Shown: positions 1 through 10,604 of the stretch, in pieces
Layout of the letters: each line of letters opens with the position of its first letter
Numbering within the stretch: position 1 is the first letter of the stretch
Source: Acidobacteriota bacterium
GTDB taxonomy: Bacteria; Acidobacteriota; UBA6911
Direction: 5' to 3'
Assembly: GCA_016934295.1 (NCBI GenBank)
Contig: JAFGTD010000031.1
Span: 1-39,056, forward strand
DNA length: 39,056 bases
Program-made: the position numbers and the translations under genes
The notes under the pieces: model-generated
Databases searched by the model: none
The model's input: only the letters and a program-made list of their open reading frames with translations
Told to the model about the DNA's origin: nothing

Positions 1-76
1 CATTCAGGGTCACGGAAGTTATGCTCTATCATACACTTGGCGAACTACCTGAGCCGGAATATACCCACAGATTTTC

Positions 77-331
77 ATGAGGAAGCAGATTTTTTATCTA
101 GGCTTGGATGGAAAAATGATGGCTGTGGATATTGATCTGGAAAGCAAAACGGAACCGGGCAAGCCAAAGGAATTATTCGATACGGAGTTAATTGTTGAGT
201 CAGGGATGGGAACCGACCAATACGCCGTGACTCCTGATGGCCGACGTTTCCTTATTCTGAAGCCGGTAACAGAATCGGCATCCATTCCAATCACTGTCGT
301 TCTCAACTGGACTTCATTATTAGAAAAATGA
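77..331 (+). pseudogene. C-terminal remnant of a kinase-associated TolB-like propeller
   Basis: The 84-residue product matches only the last part of the propeller found in the 19033-20115 gene: both have an IFYL...K-MAV strand, a DGRRFL motif and a closing LLEK/LLKK tail. Homology begins near position 80, and the frame is closed by a TGA at 50-52, so neither a kinase domain nor the rest of the propeller precedes it inside the window. I read it as a 5'-truncated remnant. Its TGA overlaps the ATG of the next kinase (ATGA, 328-331), the same junction seen at 20112-20115. It could still be translated as a short peptide that couples to the kinase, but no clear ribosome binding site is visible. Confidence 0.55.
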
Positions 332-3006
332 CACTTTCAACCGGTACCACGCTATCTCATTACGAAATAACCGCAGAAATCGGCAAGGGCGGCATGGGTG
401 AGGTGTATCAGGCGAAGGACCGGAAACTCGGGCGAGATGTGGCGATCAAGGTCCTGCCTGAAGAGTTTGCCCAAGACGACGACCGTGTAGCCCGTTTCCA
501 GCGTGAAGCGAAGCTGCTTGCCTCCCTCAATCATCCGAACATTGCGGCTATATATGGTCTGGAAGAGGCTGACGGCACAAACTTCCTTGTGATGGAGCTT
601 GTTGAGGGGCAGACGCTGGATGATCGGATCAAGACGGGTGCCATCCCCGTCGAAGAAGCCCTGAAACTTGCGCTGCAGATCGCCGAAGCCCTGGAAGCCG
701 CCCATGAGAAGGGAGTGATCCACAGGGATCTGAAGCCCGCCAACATCAAAGTGACGCCTGACGGGAAAGTGAAAGTGCTGGACTTCGGTCTTGCGAAGGC
801 GTTCGCCGGCGAACAGCCTGATTTGAACCTGTCGAACTCTCCAACCTTGAGCGTAGCAGCAACTCAACAAGGCGCGATTCTCGGAACAGCGGCTTATATG
901 AGTCCGGAACAAGCAAGAGGGAAAGAAGTCGATAAAAGAGCGGATATATGGGCGTTTGGCGTTGTGCTCTTTGAAATGCTGACCGGACGACAGATTTTTT
1001 CAGAAAAGACTGTCTCAGATACTTTGGCGTCTGTCCTTAAAAGTGAACCAGAATGGCAGAGCCTTCCCCAAAACCTTCATCACCGAATCCGTCTTCTACT
1101 TGAACGCTGCTTAAAGAAGGAATGCAAAAACCGTTACAGCGGCATCAGCGATGCGAGGGTGGATATTCAAGAGGTTCTGGCCGATCCGAGCGGCGTGTTA
1201 GCCCAACCGGTTCCTTCAGGAGAATCCCGAACAAAGTTCCGAACAATGATCCCATGGCTTGTAGCAACCCTTGTCTTGGGAGCAGTCATAGCCGGAATCA
1301 TTGTATGGAAAATAAAGCCTATAGATTCTACTAAGCTGAAACAGGTTGTACACGCAACTTACAACCTGCCCAAAGATCATTATTTCAGTAATGAATACCA
1401 GCCCCTGTTGGCTGTTTCACCTGAAGGCAGTCAATTCGTCTACTGTGCACAAGATGGGATTTACTTGCGTTCTATCAGTAAAGATCAAGCGATAATCATT
1501 CCCGGAACGAAGGGTATAGCCCAATCGCCATTCTTCTCTCCTGATGGAAAGTGGATAGGCTATTATTCTCCTTCTGAAAAGAAATTGAAAAAGATCAGGA
1601 TAAGTGGCGGCATACCTACTGATTTATGTATAGTCGACAGTAATCCTGTAATTCCCGATTGGGGTGCTGATGGAAATATTGTTTTTGGTCAGTTTGGAAA
1701 AGGCATCATGCAAATTCCTGAAAAGGGGGGTAAACCCGATTTACTTTTAAAGGTAGACTATGAATATATTTTTTATCCACAAGCTCTGCCCAATGGCAAG
1801 GCTGTACTATACAGCCAAGGTGACGAAGTCATAGTTCAGGAATTGGAATCAGAAGAACCCAAACCGCTTTTCCCTGGCACTTCTCCACGATATCTTCCTA
1901 CGGGGCATATCCTGTTTTCATCCGGCAATACTCTTTTTACCATCCCGTTTGATTTAAACAATCTCGAGATCACGGGTGATGCCATTCCGGTTTTTAATGA
2001 CGTTCATCAGGCCTTGTGGACTTTACACTATGCAGTTTCTGGCTCGGGAACAATAGTCTATATTCCGCGTGATCGGTTTCCCGTAGACTCTGAGCTTGTT
2101 TGGGTAGACATGAATGGGAATGAAGAGCCTCTCGGCCTTCCATCGGCCGATTATAGAGGCGTCAGCATATCTCCAACTGGAAACAAAATAGCCTATATCA
2201 TCAGCGCCGGCGAAACGTCCGATCTTTTCATATACGATCTTGCTAAAGAAAAACCGGAGCAACTCACAGTCAATAAGGTTTGTGGTTTTCCTCTATGGTC
2301 GCCCGATGGGCAGCGCATCTTTTTTTCATATAGCGAGGATAATTTCGCCAAATCAAGTTTATGTTGGAAGGCTTCTGATGGCAGAGGCGATGTGAAATGC
2401 ATTCCTACCGGTTCCGGTATTGCATTTGCCGCTACTAGTTGGTCACGCGACGGTAAAAGAATAGTCGGAACTCATGTATCGGGGATTGGGGCATTGGATA
2501 TCGGGATGGTTTCCGTTGGAGGGAATGGTTCATATGAATTATTACTAAGCGAAAATTATATGGAATTGAATCCTAAAATTTCTCCTAATGGACTATGGAT
2601 GGCATACGGATCCCATGAATCATCTCTTGGTGAAATTATTATCCGTCCATTTCCTGATGTAAAGGATTGGTGGAAGAAAATTTCAGTAGGCGGTGGTTCC
2701 ACTCCTCTGTGGTCACCGGATTCCAGTAAGCTGTATTATTTCAGTCCAGACTCAAAAAAAATGTCTGTTTCTATAGAAACAGAACCGGATTTCGAACCCC
2801 AAAATCCTGAGACACTATTTACGGGAGTTTATCGCGCATTCGGAGGACAAGATGGATATTCGTGGGACATTCACCCTAACGAAAATAAATTTTTAATGCT
2901 TAGACCTGCCACTAATGCTGCTGATGAATTCTACAGTAATCCGCGTAGTATAGAGATTGTATTGAACTGGTTTGAAGAACTGAAGGATCGGGTGCCGATG
3001 CCATAA
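328..3006 (+). CDS. Receptor-type Ser/Thr protein kinase with C-terminal TolB-like propeller
   Basis: This is an 892-residue membrane protein kinase that phosphorylates Ser/Thr on cytoplasmic partners, probably in response to a ligand bound outside. The kinase domain occupies about residues 12-285: glycine loop GKGGMGEVY (19-27), ATP-binding Lys41, catalytic HRDLKPAN (132-139, Asp134), DFG (152-154) and the APE-like MSPE (191-194). One transmembrane helix is at about 307-328. The rest, to the end, is a beta-propeller of PD40/TolB type with repeated LWSPDG- and FSPDGKW-like strands, predicted to be periplasmic. The start overlaps the preceding propeller remnant by ATGA and is supported by the identical N-terminus at 20112. 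A lipoprotein gene follows 32 bases later. The propeller half is visibly richer in A/T than the kinase half. The substrate and signal are unknown. Confidence 0.93.
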   Translation: MTLSTGTTLSHYEITAEIGKGGMGEVYQAKDRKLGRDVAIKVLPEEFAQDDDRVARFQREAKLLASLNHPNIAAIYGLEEADGTNFLVMELVEGQTLDDRIKTGAIPVEEALKLALQIAEALEAAHEKGVIHRDLKPANIKVTPDGKVKVLDFGLAKAFAGEQPDLNLSNSPTLSVAATQQGAILGTAAYMSPEQARGKEVDKRADIWAFGVVLFEMLTGRQIFSEKTVSDTLASVLKSEPEWQSLPQNLHHRIRLLLERCLKKECKNRYSGISDARVDIQEVLADPSGVLAQPVPSGESRTKFRTMIPWLVATLVLGAVIAGIIVWKIKPIDSTKLKQVVHATYNLPKDHYFSNEYQPLLAVSPEGSQFVYCAQDGIYLRSISKDQAIIIPGTKGIAQSPFFSPDGKWIGYYSPSEKKLKKIRISGGIPTDLCIVDSNPVIPDWGADGNIVFGQFGKGIMQIPEKGGKPDLLLKVDYEYIFYPQALPNGKAVLYSQGDEVIVQELESEEPKPLFPGTSPRYLPTGHILFSSGNTLFTIPFDLNNLEITGDAIPVFNDVHQALWTLHYAVSGSGTIVYIPRDRFPVDSELVWVDMNGNEEPLGLPSADYRGVSISPTGNKIAYIISAGETSDLFIYDLAKEKPEQLTVNKVCGFPLWSPDGQRIFFSYSEDNFAKSSLCWKASDGRGDVKCIPTGSGIAFAATSWSRDGKRIVGTHVSGIGALDIGMVSVGGNGSYELLLSENYMELNPKISPNGLWMAYGSHESSLGEIIIRPFPDVKDWWKKISVGGGSTPLWSPDSSKLYYFSPDSKKMSVSIETEPDFEPQNPETLFTGVYRAFGGQDGYSWDIHPNENKFLMLRPATNAADEFYSNPRSIEIVLNWFEELKDRVPMP

Positions 3007-3038
3007 TCGACGAAAACTCAGCCCGAAAAGGAGGAACG

Positions 3039-3956
3039 ATGAAAAGACTACTCATGCTCATCCCTTTGGTCTTCCTATGCTGTTTTACGGCTTGCACGGA
3101 TGCTTCTGTCTCAAACAGCGAAATGAGTTCAGAGGATCTGACAGCGGTTATGGACCGGTATCTTGGTTTGCTTGTAAAAAACGATCCGGCCGGATTGCCG
3201 GTTGCCGATAATATTAAGATCACCGAGAACGGTTACGCGATTCAGTTGGGCAACGGGCTTTTTCAAACAGCGGAAGAAATAACCTATAAACAGTACATGG
3301 CTGATCCCTCAGTCGGTCAGGTTATGGTTTTTGGTGTCGTGAAGGAATCGGTGCTCCTGGCTAATTTCATGGTTCGCTTGAAGGTTGTAGGCGATAAAAT
3401 CACGGAAATTGAAACTATTGTGGCGAGAAAAGACGAGGCTTCATTCGCCAGTCCGGAAGATTTGAAAGAGCCCAGGCCCGTATATGCCGGAATCCTGTCC
3501 GAATCGGAGCGTTCTCCTCGGGATGTATTGATAAAGATCGCAGACAGTTATTTTGAAGGCATAGAAAAAAACACCGGCGAAATAGTCCCGTTTCACAAGG
3601 ACTGCAACCGCTTTGAAAACGGCACGCAGACTACCAATAACCCGTCCACGATCGCGACCGGATGCAAGGAACAGTTTGATAATAAGGTATACTCCTACAT
3701 CACTAAAATCAGAAATCGGCGCTTTTTGATGGCTGATGAGGAAAAAGGATTGGTGTTTGGAATAGTCGTTTTTGATATGCCGGGGAAAAGGGAAAACTTT
3801 GAATATTTTCCAACACCTTTTGATCAACTGCCGACCCGGTTTTATAAACCCCGATCCCTGTTGCTGGCTGAGATGTTTAAAATTGTCGACGGACAAATAC
3901 TCTCTATTGAAGCCGTAATGGTAAATGCGCCGTTCGGGGCCACTACCGGCTGGTAA
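3039..3956 (+). CDS. Predicted lipoprotein with two NTF2/DUF8021-like domains
   Basis: The 305-residue product has a lipoprotein signal peptide, MKRLLMLIPLVFLCCFTAC, with the lipid-bearing cysteine at 19. A strong ribosome binding site (AAAAGGAGG) precedes the ATG. The mature part looks like two alpha+beta units of NTF2 type (about 30-140 and 160-300). The second has the pattern (R)RFLMADEEKGLVFGIVVFD, which resembles the core of DUF8021-type proteins and the secreted protein at 22325-23173. No catalytic residues are apparent, so I do not assign a reaction. It follows the kinase at 32 bases and is probably cotranscribed with it, which makes it a candidate partner or ligand-binding protein for the kinase's extracytoplasmic propeller. 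The RBS and signal peptide are nearly identical to those at 20649, but the mature domains differ. Confidence 0.75.
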   Translation: MKRLLMLIPLVFLCCFTACTDASVSNSEMSSEDLTAVMDRYLGLLVKNDPAGLPVADNIKITENGYAIQLGNGLFQTAEEITYKQYMADPSVGQVMVFGVVKESVLLANFMVRLKVVGDKITEIETIVARKDEASFASPEDLKEPRPVYAGILSESERSPRDVLIKIADSYFEGIEKNTGEIVPFHKDCNRFENGTQTTNNPSTIATGCKEQFDNKVYSYITKIRNRRFLMADEEKGLVFGIVVFDMPGKRENFEYFPTPFDQLPTRFYKPRSLLLAEMFKIVDGQILSIEAVMVNAPFGATTGW

Positions 3957-3981
3957 ATCAACAGTACATCTCAATATTCTA

Positions 3982-4833
3982 ATGACGACAATAGAAAAAT
4001 ACAGAAGTTATGGCAAAGAAATTGAGGATATTCTAAGGCTGGATTCTTTTGCTATAGCAGTAAAAATGATTCAGAGGGAAGAAGAAATTCCGGCGGAAGC
4101 GGTTAGACCCAAAAGGGATCGCAATCAGCATCTTGCCCAATGTCAGGCTTTTTCCCTCTCGCGACGCGGTGGTGAAACCGTGGCTATGCTGAGGGAAGAC
4201 CACTGGTGTTATGCTCCTGTCATCGGTTACGGGCTGGTTGAACAGCCGGAATTTTTCAAGAAAGGTGGATTATATAATCTGCAACTGGGTGATGATCCGG
4301 AAATACTGGAAGCATTGGGAGGCACCGGTACCAAGTTCCTCGGCCATTTCCTTGAAAAACCTGAATTAGCAAAAAATATGACATTTCCATGTTTTGAAGC
4401 CGGAAAGTATATCGGCTGCCTCACGGCGCCTTTGAGGAATACCGGCTTTGAGCCTGATGCGGTTTTCATTTATTCCAACAACGCCCAGCTGAGAAATATG
4501 CTGATGGCAATAAAATACAAGGAGGGCGTTCATGTAATCTCCGAATTCGATCCCATTGACTCCTGTATCTATTCCCTTGTTCCCCTTGTCGAGGGTAAAC
4601 AGAATTATATAATTACTATCCCTGATCCGGGCGAACAGGAGCGGGCTCTGACCGATGAAAATAAAATTATTTTTTCACTGACAAAAGATAAGGTAAAAAT
4701 CCTGGTAGAAGGGCTGAGGCACTATGATGAGATTAAACTCGGGTATACCCATTTAACGAAGCTTATGCAGGCGGATTTCGAACAGCCTAAGTTCTATACC
4801 CTGCTGTTTAAAAGATGGGGTATTATCAAATAA
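3982..4833 (+). CDS. DUF169 family protein
   Basis: The roughly 283-residue cytoplasmic protein matches the DUF169 pattern: an N-terminal region about using a substrate ('LRLDSFAIAVKMI'), then CQAFSLSRRGGE, the tryptophan/cysteine motif DHWCYAP and, further on, the paired motifs PCFEAGKY and YSNNAQLRNML. The family is widespread in anaerobes and its biochemical role is not established, so no function is given. I chose the ATG at 3982. An in-frame ATG at 3925 would overlap the end of the lipoprotein gene by 32 bases and would add residues unlike the family's start. Neither start has a good ribosome binding site, and the short 25-base gap suggests readthrough from the upstream gene. Confidence 0.8.
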   Translation: MTTIEKYRSYGKEIEDILRLDSFAIAVKMIQREEEIPAEAVRPKRDRNQHLAQCQAFSLSRRGGETVAMLREDHWCYAPVIGYGLVEQPEFFKKGGLYNLQLGDDPEILEALGGTGTKFLGHFLEKPELAKNMTFPCFEAGKYIGCLTAPLRNTGFEPDAVFIYSNNAQLRNMLMAIKYKEGVHVISEFDPIDSCIYSLVPLVEGKQNYIITIPDPGEQERALTDENKIIFSLTKDKVKILVEGLRHYDEIKLGYTHLTKLMQADFEQPKFYTLLFKRWGIIK

Positions 4834-4918
4834 ACTACTCTCCGTCTGTTAAAGAATTCCTGAAGTATTTTAAATGATCCTTTAAAAAGTTAGGGGAAAG
4901 AAATGTTTCTTAACGATT

Positions 4919-5806
4919 TTATTTTCCCACGACTTTTCCAGCCATTTTCAGCACCGTTCGGATGGAACGCTCCAGATCAAATTCAAGGAAATCCTTCTCG
5001 CGTAATACCGGCTTCAGTTGGGTATCGAGTTGCTGGCGGAGAATATCCAGACGTGTTTGTGAAGTATCCACCGGAAAATTTCCGGGGACTGAAAGTTTTT
5101 GTTTAACCAGTTTTATAAATTTCCTGTCTTCAACCGGGATTTCAAGCTTTTGCGAAGCGTAATCGATATCAAAGAAATCCCGGATGGCGACATCCCGGCG
5201 AGTCAATGCAGCTCTGAATTTTTCCGCAAATGCTTCAAATTTTGAAATACAACGCAACGATACCGGCTTCAGTAGCGGTTGATCTGATACCGGATCCAGT
5301 AAGATTGTATTTGACGGGTACATCCGTACTGCTGTCAATAGAGGTTCGCGCAATCCAATTTCAATTTTAATATTTTCCAACTGTCCACTGATCAGGGATT
5401 TATAAGAGATTACTGAAATATATTGCGTTGAGTTGTTTGTTCCTGTCAGTGGGTGGACCAATCTCAGAAAGGACAATCGATCGGGCGTTTCCGCCAGGAT
5501 CTGCTTCAATGCATGCGTTCGTTTGCTCCGTTCACTTCTGCGGGAATTGATTGGGGTGGGAATGACAAAATCCAGATCTTCACTCAGCCGATAAAATCCA
5601 GCATGCACTTTTGCAAGGCATGTGCCGCCTTTGAAAACAATGCCTTTGCCGGCGGATGACAGGTATTCCAATACTACACTGCAGAAATAATCTTTTTCAA
5701 TAAGCCGGGCCGCAAATGCTGTTCTATGTGCCGTAAAATTTACCGCTGATAGAAAAAAATCCGGATCATCAAGGATTTTCTCCGTGATCCAAGGAAACTT
5801 ATTCAT
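4919..5806 (-). CDS. abiEii: AbiEii-type nucleotidyltransferase toxin
   Basis: This is the toxin of a type IV AbiE toxin-antitoxin system, a nucleotidyltransferase-fold protein (DUF1814/AbiEii) of about 295-299 residues. Near the N-terminus it carries the motif FKGGTCLAK, then YRLSEDLDF, in which the two aspartates of the S-D-x-D motif are expected to bind metal. A later RDFFDIDY segment matches the family's conserved helix. It lies directly after the AbiEi-like gene. The ATG used here overlaps the AbiEi stop as ATGAATAA; a GTG at 5818 is an alternative start. Members of this family block growth, and some act in phage abortive infection by modifying RNA such as tRNA. The exact target here cannot be read from the sequence. 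Confidence 0.88.
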   Translation of the reverse strand: MNKFPWITEKILDDPDFFLSAVNFTAHRTAFAARLIEKDYFCSVVLEYLSSAGKGIVFKGGTCLAKVHAGFYRLSEDLDFVIPTPINSRRSERSKRTHALKQILAETPDRLSFLRLVHPLTGTNNSTQYISVISYKSLISGQLENIKIEIGLREPLLTAVRMYPSNTILLDPVSDQPLLKPVSLRCISKFEAFAEKFRAALTRRDVAIRDFFDIDYASQKLEIPVEDRKFIKLVKQKLSVPGNFPVDTSQTRLDILRQQLDTQLKPVLREKDFLEFDLERSIRTVLKMAGKVVGK

Positions 5807-6593
5807 TAATGACGACACCCCATTGACGGTTTACCATTCCACGTTTAGGTCTTCCCGGGATCCACGGGATCAAGCTGGAAGAAGGTTTTAGAGCGCGCAT
5901 CATTTTGCCAAGCTCTGCTGTATCAACTCCCTGGTTTTCGAGTAAGGCTCCAATCCGCCGTATGGTTCCTGTATCTCCATAGCGCAGGGCAACTTTGACA
6001 AGATCCTGAATATTTATTCGTTTGGTCCTGATTTCACGGCGGATCCATTCGTAACCGCGAGGAAGGCTGTCAAACCTTGACCAGTCGTATACCGCATCCA
6101 ATAGTGTCCTCACTAAGGATGAGTAGGAGACAGTTTCCCCATTCAGAGTTACCTCCTCGGTTGCGCCTAGTCTTTCGTCGTCAACTTTGATTAGTGTCAG
6201 GACAACGGATCCAATCTTACGCACTCCGGATATCCTGTTGTTATAAACGTATACACGGTTAGGGATCTGATCGACGAATCCATAGCGGTTGAATGCATTG
6301 GGTCCGCAGATTTGATAGCACCCGCTTCGATCTTCCATCAGAGTATTCAATGCCAGCGCTTCGCTTGGGGTCCATGCCCCACCCAGAGGCAGTTGTGGAG
6401 GCACAAGGTATAATCCCGGCCGTACCCTTGCAATCAGGCCGCCGCGTGAGAGTCTGCTCAGCAGTTTACGTTCCTGGTCGGGAGCCAAACGAAGCAAAGA
6501 AGATGTCAAGTCGCCATTCCGAACGGTTTTCAGCTTGCGCATCTGCATGTAGGCAAAAAACTGTGTTTCAAGTTTTCCAAGCTTCTTTTTCAT
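5799..6593 (-). CDS. abiEi: AbiEi-like antitoxin and transcriptional repressor
   Basis: The 264-residue protein begins with a winged-helix segment (about 10-65, ending in the wing-like GGLIARVRPGLYLVPP) typical of AbiEi antitoxins. This is followed by a larger C-terminal domain that in the family neutralises the AbiEii toxin. It is the first gene of a two-gene minus-strand operon and overlaps the toxin start, the usual antitoxin-first AbiE order. AbiEi proteins repress their own promoter by binding inverted repeats, and such a sequence lies just upstream at 6616-6632. The length is close to the family's usual size, and the gene appears intact. Confidence 0.85.
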   Translation of the reverse strand: MKKKLGKLETQFFAYMQMRKLKTVRNGDLTSSLLRLAPDQERKLLSRLSRGGLIARVRPGLYLVPPQLPLGGAWTPSEALALNTLMEDRSGCYQICGPNAFNRYGFVDQIPNRVYVYNNRISGVRKIGSVVLTLIKVDDERLGATEEVTLNGETVSYSSLVRTLLDAVYDWSRFDSLPRGYEWIRREIRTKRINIQDLVKVALRYGDTGTIRRIGALLENQGVDTAELGKMMRALKPSSSLIPWIPGRPKRGMVNRQWGVVINE

Positions 6594-6606
6594 GGTTGTA
6601 TTCTAT

Positions 6607-6632
6607 TTTACGTAAATACCCTTTAAAGGTAT
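6607..6632. promoter_or_regulatory. Palindromes upstream of abiEi, possible autoregulatory operator
   Basis: Fourteen bases upstream of the AbiEi start are TTTACGTAAA (6607-6616), a perfect palindrome, and the overlapping inverted repeat ATACC...GGTAT (6616-6632) around TTTAAA. AbiEi antitoxins are known to bind inverted repeats in their own promoters, so this is a reasonable operator candidate. The assignment is by position only. Confidence 0.35.
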
Positions 6633-6790
6633 CTGTGCAAAATATCATACACTATACAGAACTATCAATTTAATTCATGTAAATATATAAGTCTGAAAAT
6701 GATTATTGAAATTCCGAATCGTTTCATTGATTTTCATTAAACACGGTACATCGGAGTGTTTTACGCAAAGGTAATGCAAGAGGATATATT

Positions 6791-9529
6791 ATGAGAAAAG
6801 CACGAGATCAACAGACAAAGCTGCCGTCACCGCACAACTGGAGAACCACGGACGATGAAGAGATCTTCCGGCGCCGCTATCGCGCACAAACGGAATCTTT
6901 GAGAGTAAAAAATCTCGATCCGCGCTTCCCGATTTTTTCGAATTTTGCCGTGAAGTCTTCAAGCGGTTTAACCTATTCGGTTGAAATTCGCAGCGTTTCC
7001 AAACGGCGATTTTCCTGTAATTGCGTCGACTTCCGTATCAATGCGCTTGGGACCTGCAAGCATGTTGAGGCAACGCTCCTTTACCTGGAATCCCGATTTC
7101 GACGGCTATACTACCGGGCCGGGAAAAACGGCGCGGAACGCCTGGATGTAGTGCCGGATATAGCTTCCGGGTTGCTGCGCATCGAAGCGCTCAACCGAAA
7201 GGTGACGCCGACACTGGCCCGTGTTTTCGACAGCGGCGGATCTCTGCGAATCGATGATCCGGAAGAGGCTCTTGCGTTGTTGCGGCGCACCCGGGTTTCC
7301 TCACTGCGTATTTCACAGGAAGTAGAGCCCTGGCTCGAACAGAGACGGCGCGAACAGGAGAGGCGGGAAGCGCTTCGGGAGTATGAGCAAAAAGTGCAGT
7401 CCGGAGAATGGCCGTCGCAGGAGACATTAGTGCCTCTGTATCCCTATCAGCGCGAAGGTATGCGCCATCTGGCTTTTAAGGAACGCGCATTGTTGGCTGA
7501 TGAAATGGGGCTGGGCAAGACAATTCAGGCCATAGCCGCATCCTCACTCCTTCACCGCCTGGGTAAAGCGGCGCACGTTCTGGTGGTAACCCCGGCTTCA
7601 TTGAAAACCGAGTGGGAAGAACAAATCCAACGTTTTACCGATCTGCCGTATCAGCTTATCTATGGGTCGCGCAGCAAGAGATTGCGGTTGTATGATTCCG
7701 CTCCGTTTTTTACGATCGTCAACTATGAACAGATGTTGAAGGACGCGCTTGATGTAAATATACGTCTGCAACCGGATATCATTGTTCTGGATGAGGCACA
7801 ACGCATTAAAAACTGGAGCACCAAAACGGCTCAGGCGGTCAAGCGCCTGCAGAGCCGTTATGCTTTCGTTCTTACAGGAACTCCCGTTGAAAACCGAATC
7901 GACGATATTCATTCTCTGATGTCTTTTCTCGATCCTTCAGTCCTGGGGCCGTTATTTCGCTTTAACCGCGAGTTTTATGATTTGGACGAACGCGGACGGC
8001 CGTCGGGTTACCGGAACCTAAAGCAGCTGCATGAGCGCATCAAGCCTTTCCTGCTGCGCCGGCGGAAGGCGGATGTCGAAACGGAGTTGCCGGGACGCAC
8101 GGATCAAAGATATTTTGTTCCTCTCAGCACGAGGCAGGCCGACAGCTATGCGGTTCACGAGGCCAATGTTGCCCGGCTTATGTCTGTTGCAAAAAAACGC
8201 CCATTGACGCGACAGGAATCTGAAAAACTGCAGCGTGAACTGGCAATGATGCGAATGATCTGCGATACCAATTACATTCTGGATCCCGGCGACCGCACCT
8301 GTCCCAAGCTTTCCGAGCTGGAAAAGATACTGGAGGAATGCCGCGGTAACGGGGATGTGAAGGTGATCGTGTTTTCCGAGTGGGCGCGAATGCTGGAGCT
8401 GGTAAAAGATCTCTGCGATAGGATGGGAATTGGATACGCGCTGCATACCGGTTCGGTACCGCAACAGAGGCGACGGGCGGAAATTCAATTGTTTAAAGAT
8501 GATCCCGACTGCCGCGTATTCCTGAGCACCGATTCCGGCAGCACCGGACTGAACCTCCAAAACGCAAGCGTTATTGTGAATTGCGATCTGCCCTGGAATC
8601 CGGCCCGTCTGGAACAGCGGATTGCGCGCGCCTGGCGCAAACATCAGACGAAGCCGGTCACGGTAATTCACCTGGTTTCCGAGAATACAATCGAGCAGCG
8701 GATGCTTGAAACCCTCTCGAGTAAGCAGGCGCTTGCCGACGGAGTCCTGGACATGCGCGGAGATCTGAGTGATATCCAATTCCGTGGAGGCAAGCAGGCA
8801 TTCCTTTCCCGGCTGAATCAGCTTGTTTCGACTGCACCAAAGCATGCCGCAACCGTTGCCCGAAAGAAGGCCCTGCCGGTCGATCGAGGGCTTGGATTCA
8901 GTGAAATGGCCAGGGAATTGCTGGGATCCGCCTATGTTCGTTGTGAAGAGCGATATCCTGCAGAAGGTCCGCATTCCGTTTTAGTGGTGGTTGTGGATAG
9001 GGATGCCCCGCTGTATCGCGAAAAACTGGCGACTCCCTTCGAGGATTTTTTCGGCAGGGATGTTTCGGATCCATTGGCTCCCGTGACTCTCGAAGTGATC
9101 GACAGGTCCACCGATGAGGCGATGGAGCGCCTGGTTGCAGCAGGATTAATTGCCACGAGTACTCGCGCCGTCCGGGAACTCGGCGTATCCGGCGGGGCGT
9201 TGCCGTCTGAACTTACTGAAGCGGAACGCCGGGAGGCTCAAGAGAATCGCCGTCAGGCGAGCCGCAAGTTGAAAATGGCAGCCCTGTTGGGCGGAGGGGG
9301 ATTGCTGGAGGAAGAGCGGGAAGCTCTGCTTCAAGCCGGCTTATGTCTGGGCAAGGCGTTGAGCGTGGAAAATAAGCTTTCAGAACCGTCCTCGCTCGAA
9401 GAGGCGCTGCGCGCGCCCCATGCTATTTACTGGGGCGATCATTTTTCGACGATCCGCAACTATGCATCCGATTCCTCCGCTGCCGCCGCTTCGGCAACCA
9501 TCGCTATACGCACTCTGATCGGAGAATGA
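6791..9529 (+). CDS. SNF2-family ATPase with N-terminal SWIM zinc finger
   Basis: The 912-residue protein is predicted to be a double-stranded-DNA translocase that remodels or strips protein-DNA complexes. A SWIM zinc finger (CxCx10CxH: Cys76, Cys78, Cys89, His91) is N-terminal. The SNF2 core follows: Q-motif region YPYQREGM (217-224), Walker A DEMGLGKT (237-244), Walker B DEAQ (334-337), motif III TGTPVEN (362-368), and in the second RecA lobe the VFSEWARML, STDSGSTGLNLQ and arginine-finger RIARAWRKHQ segments. A C-terminal extension of about 220 residues after the helicase core has no family I recognise. The start has a usable AAGAGG site. The gene is one base from the DUF2293 gene, so the two are almost certainly co-translated. 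It diverges from the AbiE operon. SNF2 ATPases occur in several defence systems (for example DrmD of DISARM), but this is not a DISARM locus. Confidence 0.9.
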   Translation: MRKARDQQTKLPSPHNWRTTDDEEIFRRRYRAQTESLRVKNLDPRFPIFSNFAVKSSSGLTYSVEIRSVSKRRFSCNCVDFRINALGTCKHVEATLLYLESRFRRLYYRAGKNGAERLDVVPDIASGLLRIEALNRKVTPTLARVFDSGGSLRIDDPEEALALLRRTRVSSLRISQEVEPWLEQRRREQERREALREYEQKVQSGEWPSQETLVPLYPYQREGMRHLAFKERALLADEMGLGKTIQAIAASSLLHRLGKAAHVLVVTPASLKTEWEEQIQRFTDLPYQLIYGSRSKRLRLYDSAPFFTIVNYEQMLKDALDVNIRLQPDIIVLDEAQRIKNWSTKTAQAVKRLQSRYAFVLTGTPVENRIDDIHSLMSFLDPSVLGPLFRFNREFYDLDERGRPSGYRNLKQLHERIKPFLLRRRKADVETELPGRTDQRYFVPLSTRQADSYAVHEANVARLMSVAKKRPLTRQESEKLQRELAMMRMICDTNYILDPGDRTCPKLSELEKILEECRGNGDVKVIVFSEWARMLELVKDLCDRMGIGYALHTGSVPQQRRRAEIQLFKDDPDCRVFLSTDSGSTGLNLQNASVIVNCDLPWNPARLEQRIARAWRKHQTKPVTVIHLVSENTIEQRMLETLSSKQALADGVLDMRGDLSDIQFRGGKQAFLSRLNQLVSTAPKHAATVARKKALPVDRGLGFSEMARELLGSAYVRCEERYPAEGPHSVLVVVVDRDAPLYREKLATPFEDFFGRDVSDPLAPVTLEVIDRSTDEAMERLVAAGLIATSTRAVRELGVSGGALPSELTEAERREAQENRRQASRKLKMAALLGGGGLLEEEREALLQAGLCLGKALSVENKLSEPSSLEEALRAPHAIYWGDHFSTIRNYASDSSAAAASATIAIRTLIGE

Positions 9530-9530
9530 T

Positions 9531-10604
9531 ATGGGAAACAAACGACCGGGCGATTTGAAAGAGAGGGTTGAGCAGGCGGCGGATGCCGCGCTGCAGGCAA
9601 GCGGATCCGTTGGACCGCTGGAGCTGCTGATGGAAATGAGATTGCTGGCGCCGTCTCATTTTACAAGCTGGCGGAAAGGGATCATTCCGGCGCTGGAGGA
9701 TGTTATACAGGGAAGCCCTGAAAAGCTACGGCGATCCTTTGGACATTTCCAACAGTGGGCACGAAATCGCGGGATGAGGCCTGTAAAAATTCCGTATCAA
9801 CGAAACACACCCGGCGACGTGGTCACTCTCCGTGTGACTTTATCGGGGGATCCTGAACGGGAAGATTTTTTTAACAAGCGCTACGTTCCCGGTGAACTTT
9901 CGGCCGCAAAAACCAAGCAGACCGTTGCAAAGATGAGCAAGCCGCAGGACATCGTAGTATTCGAGACCGTACGCCAATCGGTGATCTGCAGCGAGTGCGA
10001 AACAGAGCTTAACAAAGGCGACTTTCTGTTCATGGAAAAGGATCGGCCTCTCTGCCTGAATTGCGCCGACCTGAATCATTTGGATTTTTTGCCTAGCGGA
10101 AATGCGGCTCTTACGCGGCGCGCCCGGAAATACAGCCGCTTGTCGGCCGTCGTTGTGCGCTTCGCAAGAGCGCGCAAGCGATATGAACGCCAGGGAATTC
10201 TCGTGGAACCGGATGCGATCGAGAAGGCGGAACAGGAATGTCTCGGCGACGAAGATCAGAGGATGGCCCGGCGCGAACGTGAAGCGACGCGGCGGGTGGC
10301 GCAGGACGAAAAGCTGGTTGACGAAATGGCTCAATCAATAAGGCGGATATATCCGGGATGTCCGTCGGAAGAGGCTGAAAAGATAGCATGCCATACGGCT
10401 GAGCGTGGAAGCGGCCGCGTAGGCCGTTCAGTCCCGGGGCGAAACCTGGAAGAACGGGCGCTTGAACTTGCAGTAGCCGCCTGGATTCGACACCGATGGA
10501 CGGAATATGACGAACTTCTCTGCAGTGGTCACGAACGCCTCGACGCGCGTGAACTCGTTCGTCACAAGGTCCGGGAAATTATAGGACGCTGGAAGGACGG
10601 ATAA
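9531..10604 (+). CDS. Zinc-ribbon protein with C-terminal DUF2293
   Basis: The 357-residue protein has three parts: an N-terminal region of unknown fold (1-145), a four-cysteine zinc ribbon (CSEC at 153-156 and CLNC at 175-178), a charged helical linker (about 195-260), and a C-terminal DUF2293 domain (about 265-355). The DUF2293 domain is recognisable by YPGCPSEEAEKIACHTAERGSG and the WIRHRWTEYDELL helix. DUF2293 has no established activity. The stop of the SNF2 gene is one base before this ATG, with GGAG just upstream of the ATG. This tight coupling suggests a complex in which the zinc ribbon and DUF2293 recruit or regulate the SNF2 motor. That role is inference from the gene order. Confidence 0.82.
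   Translation: MGNKRPGDLKERVEQAADAALQASGSVGPLELLMEMRLLAPSHFTSWRKGIIPALEDVIQGSPEKLRRSFGHFQQWARNRGMRPVKIPYQRNTPGDVVTLRVTLSGDPEREDFFNKRYVPGELSAAKTKQTVAKMSKPQDIVVFETVRQSVICSECETELNKGDFLFMEKDRPLCLNCADLNHLDFLPSGNAALTRRARKYSRLSAVVVRFARARKRYERQGILVEPDAIEKAEQECLGDEDQRMARREREATRRVAQDEKLVDEMAQSIRRIYPGCPSEEAEKIACHTAERGSGRVGRSVPGRNLEERALELAVAAWIRHRWTEYDELLCSGHERLDARELVRHKVREIIGRWKDG

Follow-up and report, generated by a model that had tools for sequence, protein, structure and literature searches.

A SWIM-SNF2 ATPase gene followed by a three-part DUF2293 gene in an Acidobacteriota contig: probably a lineage-restricted, facultative operon

Two adjoining genes and their surroundings

The window, by which we mean the whole stretch of 39,056 nucleotides that was analysed, is a complete contig of an Acidobacteriota bacterium, so that the gene neighbourhood was read from position 1 rightwards only. 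It carries a SWIM-SNF2 ATPase gene and, on the same strand, a gene for a protein of three parts that includes a DUF2293 domain, with a single base between the stop of the first and the start of the second (Table 1). Both can be regarded as real genes because their reading frames are conserved in relatives. They probably share one transcript as a small operon; promoter and terminator scans around the pair gave results at or near chance level. An AbiE pair (tandem AbiEi and AbiEii) lies on the opposite strand and begins 197 bases upstream of the SNF2 gene. A preliminary description of this DNA had noted the one-base spacing, the SWIM and SNF2 motifs of the first frame, a CxxC...CxxC ribbon with DUF2293 in the second and the AbiE genes next door, and the coordinates, motif positions and profile matches bear out each of these observations.

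Table 1. Genes of the locus and parts of the two proteins under study
Feature	Positions	Strand	Protein	Basis or remarks
AbiEii nucleotidyltransferase toxin gene	4919..5818	-		PF08843 1.2e-27; PADLOC
AbiEi-like antitoxin gene	5799..6593	-		PADLOC AbiEi match 1.6e-24; divergent from SNF2 gene
SWIM-SNF2 ATPase gene	6791..9529	+	912 aa	ORF list, domain profiles, motifs
SWIM-type motif CxCx10CxH			aa 76-91	motif search
SNF2-rel domain			aa 219-469	E=2.1e-45
Helicase_C domain			aa 508-617	E=7.6e-24
C-terminal tail			aa 655-912	matches no known family
Three-part DUF2293 protein gene	9531..10604	+	357 aa	ORF, PF10056 profile, homolog alignment, AlphaFold2
Unnamed N-terminal domain	9531..9938	+	aa 1-136	predicted winged-helix-like
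CxxC-CxxC zinc ribbon, LIM/RING-like	9987..10064	+	Cys 153, 156, 175, 178	weak LIM match
DUF2293 domain (PF10056), helical	10338..10595	+		81.7 bits, E=4.3e-23

With its SNF2-related and Helicase_C domains, Walker A (DEMGLGKT at residue 237), DEAx (DEAQ at 334) and motif VI (RIARAWR at 610), the first protein has the features of the SNF2 ATPase family, and by family membership it would be a translocase on double-stranded DNA. The SWIM assignment is motif-based in the window protein, which gives no score against PF04434 at 1e-3, a profile that does score a homologue in another genome of the phylum (G234, below). Within the literature collection searched, no paper turned up on the combination of a SWIM zinc finger with SNF2 in bacteria.

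The score of the second protein passes the PF10056 gathering cut-off of 25 bits, and its four ribbon cysteines are invariant across an alignment of 35 homologs. The DUF2293 family is without described function, and a full-text search of the same literature collection found no paper on it. AlphaFold2 models the whole protein with a mean pLDDT of 91.6 and the N-terminal domain alone with 86.5. Compared with solved structures, the whole protein has no sequence match and no significant fold match, and the N-terminal domain, which matches no Pfam or PHROG family, likewise has no significant fold match. Winged-helix proteins (replication terminator protein, MukE, MarR-type regulators, ORC winged helices) make up most of this domain's weak, non-significant fold matches, so that the predicted fold may be guessed, and no more than guessed, to be a winged helix that binds DNA or protein. 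A domain profile scan detected no nuclease or other recognisable effector domain in either protein.

Base composition divides the locus. The G+C content is 45% over positions 1-6700, 55% in the pair and 52% in the rest of the window, the last equal to the genome mean of 52% estimated from ten sampled contigs; the step falls near 6.7 kb, in the interval from AbiE to the SNF2 gene. The AbiE side therefore looks like a different segment from the pair, and the AbiE genes are probably not part of the SNF2-DUF2293 unit. The low-G+C side also holds a DUF169 gene, an adjoining 305-aa ORF (3039-3956) without significant family match, and a serine/threonine kinase gene (328-3006) with a PD40 propeller tail. 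The kinase was considered as a defence gene and set aside, because its matches to PD-T4-6 defence models reflect no more than general likeness among kinases, in a protein with a PD40 tail. On the other side, ten genes to the right of the pair were scanned; none has a PADLOC match and most serve sugar and acid metabolism.

Fate of the pair within the phylum

Each of the two genes served as a query against 396 genomes of the phylum, and we then read the surroundings of the relatives. Ten genomes besides that of the window have SNF2 orthologs that are full-length or nearly so and 53-87% identical (60-87% for the full-length ones), and many more have SWIM-SNF2 relatives at a greater distance (about 37-42% identical). 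The downstream end is readable in nine copies (the window, G242, G266, G250, G062, G196, G322, G239 and G180); the copies in G349 and G164 stop at contig edges and were left out of this count. Among the nine, the DUF2293 gene is intact in the window alone, survives as a remnant in G242 and is absent from the other seven.

The remnant gives the pair a history. G242 is a congener whose SNF2 protein is 87% identical to that of the window, and directly after the same SNF2 stop codon it retains sequence that aligns with the final 200 bases of the DUF2293 gene in the window. A deletion removed about 880 bases of that gene and another 19 bases were lost as well, while the SNF2 gene is still open. Because the congener keeps this remnant in place, the history of the pair reaches back beyond a single genome, and the simplest reading of the alignment is that it predates the split of the two congeners, the DUF2293 gene having then been deleted in place in G242. 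The remnant thus argues for an old operon and, at the same time, against mutual dependence of its genes. A little downstream of its SNF2 gene, G242 also has the start of a kinase gene 69% identical to that at 328-3006 of the window.

The SNF2 gene is itself dispensable, since it is broken in G180 and G274, where the damage consists of a stop or frameshift or of internal deletions (L073 and L162). The genes beside sampled SNF2 relatives are metabolic or unannotated, with SelR, amidase, pectate-lyase-like, EamA and DUF3795 among those that could be named, and AbiE stands beside none of the relatives examined.

DUF2293 was found in 16 of the 396 genomes and, outside the window's own genome, in none of nine listed congeners. 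Most of the phylum's other DUF2293 proteins have 225-250 aa and consist of ribbon and DUF2293 without the N-terminal domain. None of their genes is directly paired with SNF2, the nearest approach being a divergent copy in G254 near a 38% identical SWIM-SNF2 gene, and sampled neighbours include urocanase, aromatic amino acid lyase, a racemase-like protein, radical SAM and ABC ATPase genes and the like. An origin of the window's gene by local fusion with the phylum's own solo DUF2293 is not favoured, as the tree places its product, on a long branch and with moderate support (88/83), beside three-part actinomycete proteins.

Adjacency is therefore not kept in most genomes that have either gene. 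The preliminary description had proposed a conserved defence or DNA-maintenance module, to be recognised by recurrent SWIM-SNF2 and DUF2293 neighbours; the proposal does not survive the comparison, in which the intact pair occurs in the window alone and the SNF2 relatives are without the partner and without defence genes nearby, largely the two outcomes that the description itself had named as counting against it.

Interpretation of the pair

We consider it probable that the pair is a lineage-restricted, facultative and dispensable two-gene operon, an accessory motor with an optional adaptor. It is unlikely to be a conserved antiviral system, because relatives of either gene are found almost everywhere apart from the other and with no defence genes close by. 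The first gene would encode an accessory SWIM-SNF2 translocase on double-stranded DNA, of a family patchily kept or lost and mostly found alone. The second would derive from a separate, widely scattered and usually stand-alone three-part family (winged-helix-like domain, zinc ribbon, helical DUF2293), would have settled directly after SNF2 before the two congeneric species split, and would later have been deleted in one of them. By analogy with RapA, the motor may move on duplex DNA and clear or remodel bound protein, with the second product as an optional adaptor that would bind DNA or nucleoprotein. We infer that the genes are co-transcribed and that their products bind DNA and may contact one another.

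The N-terminal domain allows the pairing to be followed further afield. Its profile finds two of the 396 phylum genomes, the window's and G234 (same class, different family), and in both the domain is encoded directly after a SWIM-SNF2 gene; in G234 it forms a 158-aa ORF that starts 75 bases after a 38% identical SWIM-SNF2 gene. Since the G234 genome has about three SNF2 genes, chance adjacency there is improbable taken alone (roughly 0.1-0.3% by our estimate), though the case comes from about 20 host groups looked at. G234 is not an independent sample, because its sequence came to light in an inspection of the flanks of SNF2 genes and was later included in the profile.

Scanning contigs of GTDB genomes located the domain at 75 loci, in Nonomuraea, Microbispora, Nocardia, Mycobacterium, Streptomonospora, Bradyrhizobium, Legionella and several metagenome-assembled genomes (MAGs). 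The actinomycete relatives have all three parts, and the Bradyrhizobium and Legionella forms are without DUF2293. By tblastn, an SNF2 gene accompanies two of 82 loci, which together cover 1.51 Mb and many of which come from one genus. With a background of 8 strong SNF2 genes in 22.7 Mb of four genomes (0.35 per Mb), about 0.5 such loci are expected by chance, and the two observed therefore represent no clear excess. They are in Bradyrhizobium plasmids and an Actinomycetes MAG (L093), with SWIM in a separate gene and the SNF2 gene 2-3 kb away, non-adjacent. A comparison of neighbourhoods found no other gene common to the host groups.

The domain also occurs in another phylum, to which a MAG named as Clostridia belongs: six of 200 genomes there have it, one of them only at E 6e-4. 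At the five loci read outside the query genome (L192-L196) it stands alone as a small protein of 120-157 aa, and SNF2 is absent from the vicinity. One of these genes is part of a conjugative-type element, flanked by a CD1107-like mobile-element gene on one side and a topoisomerase gene on the other, and one adjoins a BRO-N protein gene.

The Bradyrhizobium plasmids present an association of their own. A 754-aa 2OG-Fe(II) oxygenase is encoded directly upstream of the N-domain/ribbon protein (L033:7619-10630), and the arrangement recurs at five further Rhizobiales/Proteobacteria loci (among L086-L091; 70-83% identical), which makes this pair better conserved than the SNF2-DUF2293 pair of the window. 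These plasmids were considered as carriers of the same module as the window (here with SNF2, SWIM, oxygenase and N-domain protein), an idea rejected because other Bradyrhizobium loci keep the oxygenase without SNF2.

Other explanations of the pair were weighed as well. Proteins with the N-terminal domain might partner SWIM-SNF2 motors specifically, in a recurring combination of motor and winged-helix adaptor for genome upkeep (clearing stalled transcription or nucleoid proteins, for example), most solo cases acting in trans. The window, the G242 remnant, G234 and the loose SWIM-SNF2 neighbours in the Bradyrhizobium plasmids and L093 speak for this; it is nevertheless unlikely, as 80 of the 82 loci have no SNF2 in their flanks, the Bradyrhizobium genome G398 has the domain and no SNF2 gene by PF00176, and SNF2 persists in G242 where the partner was deleted. 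Improbable as well, in our estimate, is that residues 1-136 represent an undescribed winged-helix-like adaptor family, spread over several phyla and one or more conjugative-type elements, which SWIM-SNF2 motors would have recruited at least twice and which, in the window, would be fused to ribbon-DUF2293 and co-transcribed with the motor. From G234 and the SWIM-associated SNF2 genes near the two loose loci, a weak functional link between the domain and SWIM-SNF2 proteins is possible. At the other extreme, the two genes could be chance neighbours without any functional link, as the lack of conservation of the pairing would allow; the one-base spacing on one strand, the existence of the pair before two species split, one of which later lost the DUF2293 gene, and the G234 case make this, too, rather improbable.

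Our preferred reading, a facultative operon, means one candidate fewer among possible new defence systems: an SNF2 motor with a zinc protein in an AbiE neighbourhood looks plausible, yet the arrangement is not conserved. The most original by-product of the analysis is the N-terminal domain, previously unlisted, common to small proteins of several phyla and now defined, whose definition can be used to annotate DUF2293 or bacterial LIM-domain proteins.

Comparison with known systems

An undescribed two-gene anti-phage module, in which the SNF2 protein would sense or track invading DNA with the DUF2293 protein as adaptor or effector and AbiE in the same island, is very improbable: the likeness of the motor to defence ATPases (best PADLOC models DpdE and ZorD), the adjoining AbiE genes and the patchy presence and loss of the genes are outweighed by matches confined to the shared ATPase core, metabolic genes to the right without PADLOC matches, SNF2 relatives without AbiE, the lack of any nuclease or recognisable effector in the two proteins and the result of a search of phage and viral-contig collections, which gave no homologue. 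We saw no sign of a dedicated anti-phage function in the genes and neighbourhoods examined; a defence island may lie left of position 1, beyond the contig start.

The likeness to ZorD (Zorya), DrmD (DISARM), DpdE and BrxHII (BREX) is that of the ATPase core. The window protein scores below every curated NCBIfam cut-off tested, with 159 bits against 1500 for ZorD, 132 against 950 for DrmD and 121 against 500 for DpdE, and the partner genes of Zorya, DISARM, Dpd and BREX (nuclease, methyltransferase, PglX/PglZ, ZorABC) were not found in the window. As a type IV toxin-antitoxin system, the AbiEi/AbiEii pair is a separate divergent unit that is not linked to SNF2 or DUF2293 elsewhere. The second gene is a clear member of the DUF2293 family, set apart by its N-terminal domain from the other members in the phylum.

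Known counterparts of the motor include RapA/HepA, bacterial SWI2/SNF2 ATPases that act in RNA polymerase recycling (PMC8501970). Like them, the window protein has an SNF2 ATPase core with all helicase motifs and would by family be a translocase on double-stranded DNA. It reaches 84 bits against a RapA cut-off of 576 and differs from RapA/HepA in its SWIM-type zinc motif and in a C-terminal tail unrelated to theirs.
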